A model generated the notes under the pieces. That model searched no databases. It was not told the DNA's origin and worked only from the letters and a program-made list of their open reading frames with translations. From Candidatus Zhuqueibacterota bacterium (GTDB lineage Bacteria > Zhuqueibacterota > Zhuqueibacteria > Residuimicrobiales > Residuimicrobiaceae), in assembly GCA_963169875.1 (NCBI GenBank), contig CAUJEL010000028.1, forward strand, positions 1-42,237: a stretch of 42,237 nucleotides of DNA, written 5' to 3'. Of this stretch, positions 29,344 through 35,617 are shown in pieces. Both the position numbers and the translations under genes were made by a program. Numbering within the stretch: position 1 is the first letter of the stretch; each line of letters starts with the position of its first letter.

Positions 29344-29868
29344 TCAACCCCGTCTGGCCGTCATCCGCATCCAGGCATAGCGGCCGGCGATGAAAAAGAG
29401 GATGACGATGGGGATCAGCCACACCGGCGTGATCCAGATCAGCGCGATCACCCGCAGCCGCGCCAGCAGAAAAACCGCGGCAAAGACGATGGCCGAGAAC
29501 AGCGCCATGCCGCTCAAGCGGCTGAAGCCCGGCACCTGCTCAAAATCGACCAGCTGGCGATAGAGGTACAGCGACGCCGCCATCCAGATGGGCGGGAAAA
29601 AATAGAACACCGGCAGGCTAAGCAAATTCATGCGGGTGATGAATAATAAATAGACCAGAATCATGATATAAAACATCCCCGGAATCGTGGTGAGAAAAAC
29701 GGGAATGGCCATGAAACGGTGCGCCCAAAGAGGACGGTTCGATTTGAGCAGCAGATAACAGACCACTACACTGGTCAGAGTCAACAGCAGCATCGCCAGC
29801 ACCAGCAGCTGCCATTGGCGCGCCAGACTGAGCAGCAAATCTTCCAGGGTTTGCGGGTTATTTTCCAT
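29344..29868 (-). CDS. Integral membrane protein downstream of the SSS symporter
   Basis: A 174-residue protein with four to five predicted membrane spans (about 20-41, 50-72, 82-100, 122-137 and 142-166), short charged connecting loops and a basic C-terminus. It starts inside the end of the symporter gene (an 11-base overlap), with AAAGGATC upstream of ATG 29868, so the two are translated from one message. I do not recognise a family. It could be an accessory subunit or chaperone of the symporter. Confidence 0.78.
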   Translation of the reverse strand: MENNPQTLEDLLLSLARQWQLLVLAMLLLTLTSVVVCYLLLKSNRPLWAHRFMAIPVFLTTIPGMFYIMILVYLLFITRMNLLSLPVFYFFPPIWMAASLYLYRQLVDFEQVPGFSRLSGMALFSAIVFAAVFLLARLRVIALIWITPVWLIPIVILFFIAGRYAWMRMTARRG

Positions 29869-31561
29869 AGATGTGATCCTTTCTCTCCAGGCTCATCTGC
29901 AGCGGCCACGACAATCCCGCCACCGCCAGGCAGCCGATGACATTATACCATAAAAATGAAATATCCGTCCACAAGAAACAGCCCATCACCAGCATCTCCG
30001 CAGCCACAGCCGCCCAAAAGACCGCCCTGCCGCCGATGCGCGGCAGATAAAACGCCACCAGAAAAATCCCCACAATCGTCCCGTAAAAAAGCGAGCCGAG
30101 AATATTGACCGCCTCGATGAGGGAGCCGAGGCGGCTGGCGTAATCGGCAAAGGCGATGGCGAACAGCCCCCAGCCGATGGTGGCCAGACGCGAAAAACGC
30201 ACGGTCTGTTTTTCGTCCGGCTGGCGTTTGCGGAAGCGGCGATACAAATCCACCGTCGCGGTCGATGCCAGGGCGTTGAGTTCCGCGGCCACCGAGGACA
30301 TGGCGGCCGCGACAATGGCCGCGATCACCAGCCCCACAATGCCTGTTGGCAAATGCGATGTAATGAAACTGAGAAAAATGAAATTGGTGTCTTTTGGATC
30401 CATGCCCGGATTCACAGTCTTCATCAGCCCGATGCCTTGCTGGCGGATAGCGCCCAGCTCGGTTTGGGACTGCGCCAGGGCGGTTTCCGCCGCGCGTCTG
30501 GAGGCCTCGTCCTTTTGACTGAACGCCGCCACCAGCTGCTCGCTGTTGCGCTGGTTAACAACCGCGGCTCGTTGATACTCCGCTTCCAGCACGGCATAGG
30601 CTTCGGCTTGGGGCGAATGCAGCACACGGTTGACCTCGACGCGGTTGAAAAACAGCGGCGGCGCGTTGAACTGATAGAACACAAATACCAGGATGCCGAG
30701 GAAGAGGATGACAATCTGCATGGGAATTTTCAGCAATCCGTTGAAGAGCAGACCGAGGCGGCTATGGCTGATCGACCTGGCGGTGAGATAGCGCTGCACC
30801 TGTGACTGGTCGGTCCCGAAATAGGAGAGCTGCAAGAAGAAACCGCCGATCACTCCGGACCAAAAGGTATAGCGGTTGCTGAGATCGAATGAAAAATCGA
30901 TGCTGTCGAGTTTGCCCATGCGGCCGGCCAGGCGCACGGTGTCCATCAGACCCATCGGACCCGGCAGGAGGTTTATGACGAGCACATAGGTGGCGATCAT
31001 GCCGAAAAAGATGATCAGCATCTGCAGGGACTGCGTATAACCGACCGCCCGCGCGCCGCCCGATGCGGTATAGAGAATAACCACACCGCCGACCACCAGG
31101 TTCATCCAGAAGAGATCCCAGCCAAAGATGGTCGAAAAGATGATGGCGGGCGCATAGATGGTGAGTCCGGCCGCGAGTCCGCGCTGGACCAGGAACAGCA
31201 GCGCCGCCAGCGTGCGCGTGCGCAGGTCAAAACGCGATTCGAGATATTCGTAGGCGGTGAATACCTGGAGACGGTGATAAATGGGCACCGCGGTGATGGA
31301 GAGGACCACCATGGCCAAAGGCAGCCCCAAATAAAATTGAATGAAACGCATGCCATCAACGTAGGCCTGGCCGGGCGTGGACAGGAAGGTGATGGCGCTG
31401 GCTTGCGTCGCCATGATGGAAAAAAGCACGGTGGTCCAGCGCAGATTGCGGTCCGCCAGCAGATAACTCTGTCCGGTCTGGCTGTGCCGTCCCCGCCACA
31501 TCCCGTACAGGGCGACAAATAGCAGGGAAGCGATGAGGACGGTCCAGTCGATGACATGCAT
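29858..31561 (-). CDS. Sodium:solute symporter (SSS family)
   Basis: A 567-residue inner-membrane symporter of the LeuT-like SSS family, coupling Na+ to uptake of an organic solute. Typical features: YLLADRNLRWTTVLFSIMAT at 33-52 with ASAITFLSTPGQAY in TM1-TM2, AYEYLESRFDLRTRT at about 103-117, LYTASGGARAVGYTQSLQ at about 163-180, and the Na+-site region SSVAAELNALASTATVDLYR near 420. A charged Gln/Ala/Glu-rich segment of about 75 residues (310-390) interrupts the C-terminal half and may form an external helix. AAGGATG precedes the ATG at 31561. It follows the C1 peptidase gene by 17 bases. The substrate is unknown; amino acids, peptide fragments or sugars are possible. Confidence 0.92.
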   Translation of the reverse strand: MHVIDWTVLIASLLFVALYGMWRGRHSQTGQSYLLADRNLRWTTVLFSIMATQASAITFLSTPGQAYVDGMRFIQFYLGLPLAMVVLSITAVPIYHRLQVFTAYEYLESRFDLRTRTLAALLFLVQRGLAAGLTIYAPAIIFSTIFGWDLFWMNLVVGGVVILYTASGGARAVGYTQSLQMLIIFFGMIATYVLVINLLPGPMGLMDTVRLAGRMGKLDSIDFSFDLSNRYTFWSGVIGGFFLQLSYFGTDQSQVQRYLTARSISHSRLGLLFNGLLKIPMQIVILFLGILVFVFYQFNAPPLFFNRVEVNRVLHSPQAEAYAVLEAEYQRAAVVNQRNSEQLVAAFSQKDEASRRAAETALAQSQTELGAIRQQGIGLMKTVNPGMDPKDTNFIFLSFITSHLPTGIVGLVIAAIVAAAMSSVAAELNALASTATVDLYRRFRKRQPDEKQTVRFSRLATIGWGLFAIAFADYASRLGSLIEAVNILGSLFYGTIVGIFLVAFYLPRIGGRAVFWAAVAAEMLVMGCFLWTDISFLWYNVIGCLAVAGLSWPLQMSLERKDHIYGK

Positions 31562-31578
31562 GGGTGCATCCTTATGCG

Positions 31579-32799
31579 TTATTTAAAGCGGGCGAGGAGG
31601 TCGCGCACCGCATCCTTGTGCAGTGTGGCGCAGAGCATCTTCAACTTGACATAATCTTCGTGATAAAAATAATAACCCGGATGGCTGCTGTTGTAGGCGG
31701 AACTCCACGAGTCCTTGACCAGATACCAATCCTTGCCATCCCTTTCGACATAACCGACCAGATGCAGACCATGATCGTCCTGGGTGGTTTTGTTGCTGAA
31801 GCGGAACTGCCGCGCCAGGTCGTCGATGTACGAGGAGGGGATATCGAAGGAGGGCACGACGGCCATGCCCGCGGCGCCGTAGGAGTAGCCGGGCTCGCTC
31901 ATGTCGCCGCCAATTTCCACTGTGTACCCATCGCGGATGGCTTTTTTCAGGGCCTGCATGAACTCTTCCAGGGGCACGTTATGGTAATCGCTGTTGTGCC
32001 ACCAGTTGTCCGGCACGGGATATTCCACCTTTTCGTAAAAGGGCTGCTGCAGGAGGGAGAGCAGATCGACATAATCGTCCGGATTGAGGCGCACGACTTT
32101 GGCGAGGTACTCTTTGGGCGTCATGGAGGTGCCGTCGACGGTCACCGCCGTTGGCGGCGGGCCGATATGGTGGTCAAGGATGGTGCGCACCGTGGTGATG
32201 ACCACCTCCTCGTTCCAGGCATTGGCCTCCTTGACGCTGGTGAGATAGTTTTCAATCTCCGAAAATAAGGCAAGGTGGTCGTGATAGCGCGCGCCAGGTT
32301 TAAGGCCGGTATAGCTCTCGGCGGGAACGACGCCGTACTTTCTCCAGATGCGCAGCACTGCATTGGCTTCGGAGCCTTCGCCGTAAACGGAGGTGCCGCG
32401 GCTATGAACGAATCCGCGCGCTTTTTCGACGTGCTCCCAATAGACGGTGTGCAGTTCGGAGAGTTTGATCTTGCGTTTGCTCTGCCGGTAAATCTCGGAT
32501 TCGAGCATGGAGGTGGTGGAGAAGCACCAGCACATCCCTGAGCGTCCCTGGAGAATGGGCGGGAAATGCCACTGGCTTTTAAAATCCCCCAAGGCCGGCG
32601 CCGGAATGGTTGAGAAGTCGACCTGAAAGACTTTGGTGGCGGATTTTTCGCCTCCCGATTCGGCCACGGCCTTTTTGATGGCATCGTACATGACATCGTT
32701 CTTCACCGCAAAAACGGCTTGATCGCGGCGCTCCTGGGCGTTAATGGAGAGAGTGGCAATCGTTAACAGAAACAGAAGGATTGATGTGAATCGATTCAT
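31579..32799 (-). CDS. Exported C1-family cysteine peptidase (bleomycin hydrolase/aminopeptidase C-like)
   Basis: A 406-residue papain-fold peptidase with a signal peptide (residues 1-21, ending SINAQ). Gln84 and the nucleophile Cys90 lie in QGRSGMCWCFS at papain spacing, and catalytic His343 is in DDHGLHLVGY. The position of papain's Asn is Asp363 in VKDSWSSAYN, where most relatives have NSWG. The C-terminal LHKDAV resembles the end of aminopeptidase C. AAAAAGGAACTCC precedes the ATG. It is 17 bases before the SSS symporter gene, suggesting that released amino acids or peptides are taken up. Enzymatic competence with Asp in place of Asn is uncertain. Confidence 0.88.
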   Translation of the reverse strand: MNRFTSILLFLLTIATLSINAQERRDQAVFAVKNDVMYDAIKKAVAESGGEKSATKVFQVDFSTIPAPALGDFKSQWHFPPILQGRSGMCWCFSTTSMLESEIYRQSKRKIKLSELHTVYWEHVEKARGFVHSRGTSVYGEGSEANAVLRIWRKYGVVPAESYTGLKPGARYHDHLALFSEIENYLTSVKEANAWNEEVVITTVRTILDHHIGPPPTAVTVDGTSMTPKEYLAKVVRLNPDDYVDLLSLLQQPFYEKVEYPVPDNWWHNSDYHNVPLEEFMQALKKAIRDGYTVEIGGDMSEPGYSYGAAGMAVVPSFDIPSSYIDDLARQFRFSNKTTQDDHGLHLVGYVERDGKDWYLVKDSWSSAYNSSHPGYYFYHEDYVKLKMLCATLHKDAVRDLLARFK

Positions 32800-32961
32800 G
32801 GCGGAGTTCCTTTTTGTATTTTATTTTTAATTCCTGATTATGAAGAAATGGCTGTCTCCCCGGGTTATTCCTCGTCAAGGGCTGCCGGATCCGTTTGCGA
32901 ACAGGTTGTACGAATAATATCCGAAATGACGATTATTCTCTAACAGCAAACGTTTGTAGTC

Positions 32962-32975
32962 CCAGCTTTAGCTGG
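32962..32975. repeat. Single REP-type palindrome
   Basis: CCAGCTTTAGCTGG preceded by GTTTGTAGTC, the half-unit of the family at 5913-6273. It lies in the 217-base gap between the small membrane protein gene and the C1 peptidase gene. Confidence 0.75.
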
Positions 32976-33016
32976 CGCAAATTCTGTTAAAAGATAAAGC
33001 ACGTTCACGTAGGCTG

Positions 33017-33139
33017 TCACCCTCGGGCGATATCTCCAAGCCAGAGCAAAAACAGGATAACCACAGCCAGCACGGCCACAACCAGCGCATACCAGTGCCT
33101 CCATTTGGGAAAAAGGGGCGGTTTTTCGGTGTGCGTCAC
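33017..33139 (-). CDS. Forty-residue single-span membrane protein
   Basis: A GTG-started frame encoding 40 residues: a polar start with THTEKPPLFPKWRHWY, one hydrophobic span (about 18-34) and a short DIARG end. The GTG lies three bases after the PIG-L stop codon, and GGGAGATGATCC provides a ribosome-binding site within the end of that gene. Position, coupling and the Pro-Pro-Leu-Phe-Pro...Trp-Arg pattern before one span resemble small proteins I associate with SSS/PIG-L loci of related bacteria. The function is unknown; an accessory subunit of the symporter is one possibility. Confidence 0.68.
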   Translation of the reverse strand: MTHTEKPPLFPKWRHWYALVVAVLAVVILFLLWLGDIARG

Positions 33140-33142
33140 GGA

Positions 33143-35617
33143 TCATCTCCCTGCCTGGATCATGTTATTGAAAACTCTGTACGCACCCGGCACGCCGGCT
33201 GGCAATTGCCGGAACCAGGCATAGCTGGTGAAGATGAATACCCCCTTGCCATAGCGCGTATACAAGAGGCCGCCTTCCGTGGCTTTTTCGCCGGGATCGT
33301 TACAGGCCAGCATGCTCTCGTAGCGCGCATCCCATTTATCTGCAAAATAGAGTCCGCGCTCCTGCACCCATCCATCAAAATCATCAGCGCTGATTTTCAA
33401 CGGCCGGTTGAGCAGGGGATGCGCCGGTTTGGTGAAGGTCATCTGCGCTTCTTCGACGGTGACGCGGTCGCGCGATATCCCCAATGGATAGGGCCAGAAT
33501 TCCCCGGCCAGCAGGCGATTGGGCGTGTTGTATTGCACAATCAGGGTGCCGCCGCGGTGCACGAAATCCAGAATAGCAGGCTTGGCCTCCTTGAGGACGG
33601 CGCGCGTGTTCAAGGCGCGCACGCCGAGCATGACAACATCCACATCGGCCAACTCGCCGCGGGACAGCTCAGCGTCCGATAACAGCCGCACGGGATATCC
33701 CATCTGCTCGAGGCATTTGGGAATGTCATCGCCAGCGCCCATGACGTAGCCGATGCGGCGCTCCGGTTTGGAAAGGGGCACATAAATCAGCTCTGCCTCG
33801 GCGCGCGGAAACAGCACCTGGATGGGGATGTGCGGATACTGCAAGGTGATCAGGTTGTTTTGCAAAGTGCTCGTCCCTGTTCTTGCAACGGCATGCAAAA
33901 GACCGTTTTGGGGATTGTCCAACGGCCGGATATCAAAACGGACCTCGGCACTCTGATCCCTTTTCTCAAGTGCAAAGGGCTGCTGTTGCGGCGCGCACTG
34001 CCATCCCGGCGGCAGCTGCAACTCGATAATCCCCTCCACTTTCCCGGAAATGCTGCTGACACGAATGTTAACCTCTTTAGGGTTTGCATTGGGAAAAACG
34101 AACAAATTTTCTCCCGGACTCAGGGTCGCCGCTGGGCCAACTGCAAAAGCGCGGTAGAGATCCCCTTCTACCGGATCGGTCCAGCGATAGAGCAGCGGGA
34201 TATCGTAGGAGAGGCTGCGGCCGTTGAGGTCGAGTGCGAACCGGACGCAGCCGGCTGGGGCCGATTCGGGGTTTCCGATCAACTCCGATGCGGAAACGTT
34301 ATAATGTCCGGAAGCGGGGGGCTGCTGCAGCCAATAGGGTTGCGAGATATCGGCGCGGGGCGCGATGGTGATCTGCGTTTTCAAATCCAGCGGGCGATTA
34401 TGGGCCAAGCCGGCATTGGCCAGGGTGTCCGGTTTTGACCAGGGAAAGCTGATTTTTGTCAATCGCCAGGAGGCATGGCTGCGGTTGACGAGATTGAGCG
34501 CAAGCGTGAGCGATTGCCCGGGCGCGGCCACGGGGTGATCCACGGCAGCTTCGAGCCAGAGTCCGCTGCAGGCGCGGATGAGTTCTGCGAGTTCGCCGCG
34601 TTTTTGTTCTACCCAGTCGTCACCTGACTGTAACGATAGCAGGTCCCATGCATCTAATAAAAGGTGCAGACTCTGTTCCGGGGCACGGGCGTCAAAAGAT
34701 TTGCTGGCTTGTTGCAGCACCTCTGTCATCTTTCCGCCTTCGGGATGTGCGCGGCGCCAGGTGAGATCGATGCCGTCGAAGAGATCATTCTGGGCCGGTT
34801 CGCCCTCCAGGAGCTGAAACAGCTCGATGCGGCTGCCGCGGCGTTCGGCAGCGCCGAAACCCTGACTCTTGTGCATGCTGCGGCTTTGTGCGGCGATTTC
34901 GGTGTAGGAGCGGCCGAGCAGGGGATTGTAGAGACCGATATCGATTTGCAGCAGTCCCGAGACATCGCTGCCTTCCGGCCGCCAGGCGTTCCAGAAAAGG
35001 CGTTGGGCACGCCAGGTGCTGACTTTTGTCAATTGCTCCGGGAATTTGTGCGCATCCGCCGCCGCTTTATAGGCCTCTGCTGCGAGGATCGCAGAAGCGG
35101 TGTGATGGCCATGGCCGCCGCCGCTGGTGGCAAAACGTGAAATGATGACGTCGGGTTTAAAACGGCGGATGATCCAGACCATGTCGCCGAGGACCTCTTC
35201 GTGTCCCCATTTTTCCAGGCTCTCCTCCGCGCTCTTGGAGTAGCCGAAATCGATGGCTCGGGTGAAGAACTGCCGGGCGCCGTCGATGCGGCGGGCGGCG
35301 AGGAGCTCCTGGGTGCGGATGACGCCCATCAGTTCGCCTTGTTCGCTGCCGATGAGATTTTGCCCGCCATCGCCGCGGGTGAGGGAGAGATAGGCAACAT
35401 CGACGCGCCGTTCCTTGGCCAGCCAGGCCAGCAGCGCCGTGTTCTCGTCATCGGGATGTGCGCCAATATAAAGCACGCGGCTTAGGACATTGAGCTTGTC
35501 AATGCCCATCTGCAGTTCGGCGGCGCTGAGCGATGCGACCGGTTGGGAATGGCTGATGTGGCAGAACGCCACCGCCAAAATGACCACAGCAAAAAGTATC
35601 TGTTGCAATCGAGGCAT
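33143..35617 (-). CDS. Large exported PIG-L-family deacetylase-like protein with GATase1-like C-terminus
   Basis: An 824-residue exported protein. A signal peptide covers residues 1-25 (QQILFAVVILAVAF). The LmbE/PIG-L domain (about 45-290) has the zinc/catalytic motif GAHPDDE at 52-58 and a second metal motif GGHGHHTAS near 168; relatives hydrolyse N-acyl groups on amino sugars or similar compounds. A long beta-rich middle follows. The last 200 residues have a glutamine amidotransferase-like fold (VDVVMLGVRALNT, then HRGGTLIVQYNT). Start 35617 gives a clean signal peptide with GGAAAAG upstream; 35632 is an alternative. It heads the minus-strand cluster with the 40-residue protein, C1 peptidase and SSS symporter. 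Confidence 0.87.
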   Translation of the reverse strand: MPRLQQILFAVVILAVAFCHISHSQPVASLSAAELQMGIDKLNVLSRVLYIGAHPDDENTALLAWLAKERRVDVAYLSLTRGDGGQNLIGSEQGELMGVIRTQELLAARRIDGARQFFTRAIDFGYSKSAEESLEKWGHEEVLGDMVWIIRRFKPDVIISRFATSGGGHGHHTASAILAAEAYKAAADAHKFPEQLTKVSTWRAQRLFWNAWRPEGSDVSGLLQIDIGLYNPLLGRSYTEIAAQSRSMHKSQGFGAAERRGSRIELFQLLEGEPAQNDLFDGIDLTWRRAHPEGGKMTEVLQQASKSFDARAPEQSLHLLLDAWDLLSLQSGDDWVEQKRGELAELIRACSGLWLEAAVDHPVAAPGQSLTLALNLVNRSHASWRLTKISFPWSKPDTLANAGLAHNRPLDLKTQITIAPRADISQPYWLQQPPASGHYNVSASELIGNPESAPAGCVRFALDLNGRSLSYDIPLLYRWTDPVEGDLYRAFAVGPAATLSPGENLFVFPNANPKEVNIRVSSISGKVEGIIELQLPPGWQCAPQQQPFALEKRDQSAEVRFDIRPLDNPQNGLLHAVARTGTSTLQNNLITLQYPHIPIQVLFPRAEAELIYVPLSKPERRIGYVMGAGDDIPKCLEQMGYPVRLLSDAELSRGELADVDVVMLGVRALNTRAVLKEAKPAILDFVHRGGTLIVQYNTPNRLLAGEFWPYPLGISRDRVTVEEAQMTFTKPAHPLLNRPLKISADDFDGWVQERGLYFADKWDARYESMLACNDPGEKATEGGLLYTRYGKGVFIFTSYAWFRQLPAGVPGAYRVFNNMIQAGR

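Follow-up and report, generated by a model that had tools for sequence, protein, structure and literature searches.

A one-helix microprotein encoded with an SSS-family symporter and an exported PIG-L deacetylase in several bacterial phyla

Genes for an exported deacetylase, a peptidase, a symporter and two small membrane proteins, all read in one direction, raise the question of which of them work together, and in particular whether a frame of only 40 codons among them encodes a protein and, if so, which neighbour it serves. The locus lies in a 42,237-nt stretch of DNA, here called the window, which is contig CAUJEL010000028.1 of a Candidatus Zhuqueibacterota bacterium (GCA_963169875.1). The reading frames of the window place five minus-strand genes between positions 35617 and 29344:

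33143..35617, minus strand: PIG-L (LmbE-like) de-N-acetylase, exported, 824 aa (Pfam PF02585, E=3.7e-16)
33017..33139, minus strand: one-helix microprotein, 40 aa, GTG start (profile E=1.2e-11; cross-phylum 4.1e-11)
31579..32799, minus strand: C1B-type cysteine peptidase (aminopeptidase C / bleomycin hydrolase-like), 406 aa (PF03051, E=2.3e-14)
29858..31561, minus strand: SSS-family symporter, 567 aa (TIGR00813, E=3e-73)
29344..29868, minus strand: multi-helix membrane protein of no family, 174 aa (no Pfam or NCBIfam match)

A sequence-only reading had suggested that these genes, which include two exported hydrolases, a sodium symporter and two membrane proteins, form a compact system that frees a compound from deacylated glycan- or peptide-like material and imports it, and it had proposed modelling the symporter in complex with both small membrane proteins. 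The spacings it gave are correct: 3 nt separate the PIG-L stop from the GTG start of the 40-aa gene, 17 nt lie between the peptidase and symporter genes, and the symporter and 174-aa genes overlap by 11 nt. However, 217 nt lie between the 40-aa gene and the peptidase gene, so the cluster is compact at these junctions but looser than a single block. The GTG start is preceded by AGGGAG, and both hydrolases have hydrophobic, signal-like N-terminal segments. Scans for promoters and terminators gave results near shuffle expectation.

Comparison with other genomes reduces the five genes to a conserved unit of three, consisting of the PIG-L deacetylase, a one-helix microprotein of 30-65 aa and the SSS symporter. 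This triplet recurs in the phylum of the window, Bacteroidota, Ignavibacteria, Acidobacteria and Myxococcota. Among 99 relatives, six further genomes (G002, G007, G012, G015, G046 and G064) carry a PIG-L orthologue followed by a symporter orthologue, and in each a frame of 43-55 aa that aligns with the 40-aa protein of the window lies between them. Scanning GTDB genomes with the PIG-L alignment gave 80 loci, spread over Bacteroidota, Ignavibacteria, Myxococcota, Acidobacteria (Bryobacteraceae and Thermoanaerobaculia among them), an Eisenbacteria genome and others. The symporter lies downstream of PIG-L in 51 of these loci, with the microprotein just upstream of the symporter in all 51, and in 32 of 50 loci the end of the microprotein gene and the start of the symporter gene share 4 nt (ATGA or GTGA). 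In the other 29 loci the symporter is absent from the fetched downstream stretch, which ran for 5 kb or to the contig end. The expectation that gene order would be conserved thus holds for PIG-L, microprotein and symporter and fails for the peptidase and the 174-aa protein, which accompany the triplet at no other searched locus (the 99 relatives and the GTDB PIG-L loci). Likewise, the idea of a single system survives in part: PIG-L and the symporter do form a conserved unit, and that one compound is both released and imported would be reasonable to suppose, but the peptidase and the 174-aa protein are local neighbours outside the unit.

The 40-residue gene, which the sequence-only reading had called easily missed by gene callers, proves to be real. 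A profile trained without the window found this frame among 23,814 at E=1.2e-11, and one built from 39 sequences, nearly all Bacteroidota, recovered it at 4.1e-11 together with microproteins of other phyla. Members are about 30-65 aa long and share a motif KPPLFPKW...Y followed by a single transmembrane helix; W13 and Y17 are present in every one of 61 homologues, and all 51 microproteins tested have a hydrophobic stretch sufficient for one membrane helix. The proposed check of synonymous-site constraint indicates purifying selection, with a pooled dN/dS of 0.11 (Nei-Gojobori, pairs within genera or families at more than 60% amino-acid identity), a rough value as many pairs are near saturation at synonymous sites. 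Together with this ratio, the conserved tryptophan, tyrosine and helix residues point to a functional protein and not simply to a leader that is translated. None of the 61 microproteins matched a family in Pfam or NCBIfam. On these sequence grounds the gene is real, and encodes a member of a widespread and unnamed family of one-helix membrane proteins. Two further candidates were rejected: a second match to the 40-aa protein in its own genome (contig C31) is a chance match, and an apparent PIG-L-microprotein fusion (L089) is two genes in different frames.

Inheritance of the microprotein follows the symporter. Of 82 genomes in the phylum of the window, 7 have it, and these 7 and no others carry the symporter orthologue (p=2.6e-10); the match holds although the genomes carry many other SSS candidates. 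Among 148 Bacteroidota, 55 have both genes, 1 the microprotein only, 5 the symporter with no microprotein detected and 87 neither (p = 1.7e-33); in both sets the genomes are related by descent, and the counts do not amount to independent events. The two genes are adjacent in 51 of the 55 Bacteroidota that carry both, at a median gap of 8 nt. In three loci (L107, L124 and L134) PIG-L is set apart from the pair by intervening genes or long gaps and the microprotein stays at the symporter, and when the symporter is encoded away from PIG-L the microprotein lies directly upstream of it in most genomes examined. PIG-L is more loosely tied to the symporter than is the microprotein, as seen from the 29 loci with no symporter nearby and from three genomes (G025, G038 and G047) that have PIG-L and neither of the other two. 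In the window itself the microprotein and symporter genes are not adjacent, the C1 peptidase gene lying between them. We note that an Acidobacteria genome shows a similar separation: its microprotein adjoins PIG-L (L089:7299-7453) and its symporter is on a separate contig (L164) without a microprotein. Encoded and inherited together with one particular SSS symporter, as is expected of an accessory subunit, the microprotein is very probably a dedicated partner of this transporter. Of the two small membrane proteins that the sequence-only reading had proposed to model with the symporter, just the 40-residue protein tracks the symporter, and the 174-aa protein does not.

What this partner does is suggested by a eukaryotic precedent. 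The single helix of MAP17 binds TM13 of SGLT2 and is needed for SGLT2 uptake activity (PMC10203128, PMC10803289), which shows that a transporter of the SSS fold can depend on a subunit with a single helix. Like the microprotein, MAP17 (PDZK1IP1), which accompanies human SGLT2 and SGLT1 (SLC5, that is, SSS family), is a small one-helix protein; unlike it, MAP17 is eukaryotic and has extra regions outside the membrane, and contact with the transporter has been established for MAP17 whereas for the microprotein it is proposed here. The likeness is one of analogy and not of family membership, and no sequence relationship would be expected. The microprotein family accompanies one kind of SSS symporter, in most cases with a secreted deacetylase encoded alongside, which makes the microprotein a probable small transporter subunit, and by this analogy we consider a single-helix subunit with a MAP17-like role to be likely. 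Small membrane proteins encoded beside SSS genes are familiar in bacteria. TIGR03647 (Na_symport_sm), a putative solute:sodium symporter small subunit, is a small hydrophobic protein of this kind that partners another SSS branch, the VC_2705 family; its model has 77 positions where the protein described here has about 40 aa, the 61 microproteins gave no match to it, and the genome of the window has no member. YjcH (DUF485) with ActP and YhdT (DUF997) with PanF are larger, two-helix proteins, and the Pfam scan of the 61 microproteins showed neither DUF485 nor DUF997.

The genetic data presented here would fit a regulator, inhibiting the symporter or targeting it for turnover, as well as they fit a constitutive subunit, and several bacterial one-helix small proteins, MgtR and AcrZ for example, regulate membrane proteins. 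The constant 4-nt overlap of the microprotein and symporter genes in diverse phyla nevertheless suggests that the two proteins are made together in set proportions and are not regulated separately, and we regard a regulatory role as unlikely. Slightly less likely still is that all five genes form a single release-and-import system in which the peptidase and the 174-aa protein are working parts. The tight spacing of the peptidase, symporter and 174-aa genes in the window speaks for such a system, as does part of the same chromosomal site in a sister species (G001, a 90%-complete draft genome), a site flanked by pdxST on one side and HlyD-ABC-FtsX-TolC on the other. There, the 252 bp between the peptidase and 174-aa genes (L069:7738-7990) are collinear with the 3' end of the window symporter gene, with an alignment score of 84.5 against 77 for the best of 1000 dinucleotide shuffles and 76 for the best unrelated real stretch; control stretches that scored near or above it lie inside a genuine SSS paralogue (L069 48-1400). 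This moderate support makes the 252 bp a probable decayed remnant of the symporter gene, and its position between the peptidase and 174-aa genes suggests that the five-gene order probably predates the split of the genus. However, the same site retains the peptidase (74%) and the 174-aa protein (72%) and has no PIG-L, microprotein or symporter, so that in this species the triplet was probably lost while its neighbours remained, and at every other locus searched neither protein accompanies the triplet. Relatives of the peptidase occur in 47 of the 99 genomes, unlinked to the triplet. The 174-aa protein is confined to six genomes of one order, its clear homologues being in G001, G002, G003, G005 and G009 only, unlinked to PIG-L or the symporter in their genomes, and outside the genus the peptidase and 174-aa genes were never seen adjoining each other. 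The peptidase itself resembles aminopeptidase C (PDB 3pw3 and 5wdk, E about 1e-45), its catalytic Cys and His stretches, QGRSGMCWCFS and DDHG, aligning with these structures. In this peptidase and in its orthologue from the sister species, KDSW stands in place of the KNSW of relatives with solved structures, with Asp for the usual catalytic-site Asn.

The least probable reading is that the microprotein serves PIG-L, as a membrane anchor or as a leader or coupling peptide of the operon, its nearness to the symporter being secondary: the usual order of PIG-L, microprotein and symporter and its position beside PIG-L, not the symporter, in the window and L089 would suit this, but in most genomes examined it keeps to the symporter where the two larger genes are apart, is lacking from the three PIG-L-only genomes and, in its conserved residues and low dN/dS, does not look like a leader.

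We therefore return to the microprotein as a symporter subunit, and to what the two larger proteins of the unit suggest about its setting. The symporter (SSS family, TIGR00813/PF00474) scores 247 bits against TIGR00813 (curated cut-off 184), and its AF2 model (pLDDT 86, 13 predicted transmembrane helices) has the LeuT-type fold of SSS transporters. Its nearest structures are SiaT, NIS, SMCT1 and SGLT2-MAP17, the closest being the sialic acid symporter SiaT (5nva, also 5nv9; TM-score 0.74/0.89) at about 22% identity. S55 and T58 of the window protein align with SiaT S60 and T63, whereas SiaT Thr58 is replaced by Gln53 and SiaT Arg135 by Ala130. About one turn from the position of Arg135 lies an invariant arginine, Arg127, which hints at an anionic substrate. 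Of the Na2-site hydroxyl residues (helix 408-443), S422 is kept, but positions 425 and 426 read Ala/Ala in the window protein, where most of the family has Ala/Ser; with these two positions alanine, sodium coupling is not assured. In contrast to SiaT, the window symporter has an extended helical hairpin (about 307-383) in the loop that follows helix 264-298; the stretch 299-391 that contains it is unaligned to SiaT and measures 71-128 residues across the family. From the known topology of the fold the hairpin should face the periplasm. This hairpin of some 75 residues recurs throughout the symporter clade and could be a docking site. No close relative of this symporter was found in plasmid records.

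The PIG-L domain scores 60.2 bits (gathering cut-off 28.2), and the zinc ligands and catalytic base of the AHPDD and HxxH motifs (H54, D56, D57, H169 and H172) are invariant in 42 homologues. Its model (AF2, pLDDT 90) has a signal-like N-terminus, a catalytic domain of the MshB fold, MshB being the best PDB match, then beta-sandwich domains and a C-terminal alpha/beta domain. With its catalytic residues intact, the sequence predicts removal of N-acetyl groups. The fold and the zinc and base residues are common to MshB and Mca (mycothiol deacetylase and amidase), but the window protein scores far under the MshB, Mca and BshB equivalog cut-offs and adds the signal-like N-terminus and ~500 residues of beta-sandwich and alpha/beta domains.

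Other genes recur around the unit. A DUF2911 gene (PF11138, of unknown function) lies near PIG-L and the symporter in 28 loci of several phyla (within L074-L153), often convergent and downstream of the symporter (for example L118:9493-10344 and L119:750-1607); in the genome of the window it is on a different contig. In Mucilaginibacter- and Chitinophaga-type genomes a second small membrane protein, glycine-rich and of about 50-63 aa, is encoded between PIG-L and the microprotein (L112:7524-7712, L134:10824-11015, L118:7425-7601, L132:7468-7638, L135:7499-7654 and L145:7421-7594), and two members tested fell below every Pfam cut-off. Literature searches on a PIG-L/symporter pair, named small SSS partners and DUF2911 found nothing about the triplet system.

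In the mechanism that we propose, the exported zinc de-N-acetylase, of PIG-L/MshB type, would cleave an N-acetylated compound, probably an amino sugar, outside the cytoplasm, and the symporter would take up the resulting product or an anionic solute related to it. The microprotein would be a dedicated subunit required for folding, stability or activity of the symporter, as MAP17 is for human SGLT2, and the deacetylase would make or trim the symporter's substrate. In the window, the C1 gene would have come to sit between the microprotein and symporter genes, with the 174-aa protein a lineage-specific neighbour. That the deacetylase supplies the imported compound we put at slightly short of an even chance. 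More tentatively again, the family may represent an obligate single-helix subunit of ~30-65 aa for one SSS clade across phyla, a bacterial counterpart of SGLT-MAP17, possibly within a deacetylate-and-import complex that also involves the hairpin and the periplasmic deacetylase.

A functional model of the cluster can thus omit the C1 peptidase and 174-aa genes, and the product of an exported de-N-acetylase offers a lead to the substrate of the symporter. Little is understood about the accessory subunits of SSS/SLC5 transporters, and those of bacteria that have family names are larger proteins. A partner of 40 residues, present in multiple phyla and not in the family libraries searched, is a small and tractable system, and the microprotein/symporter pair lets one ask why some SSS-fold symporters need a helper helix.
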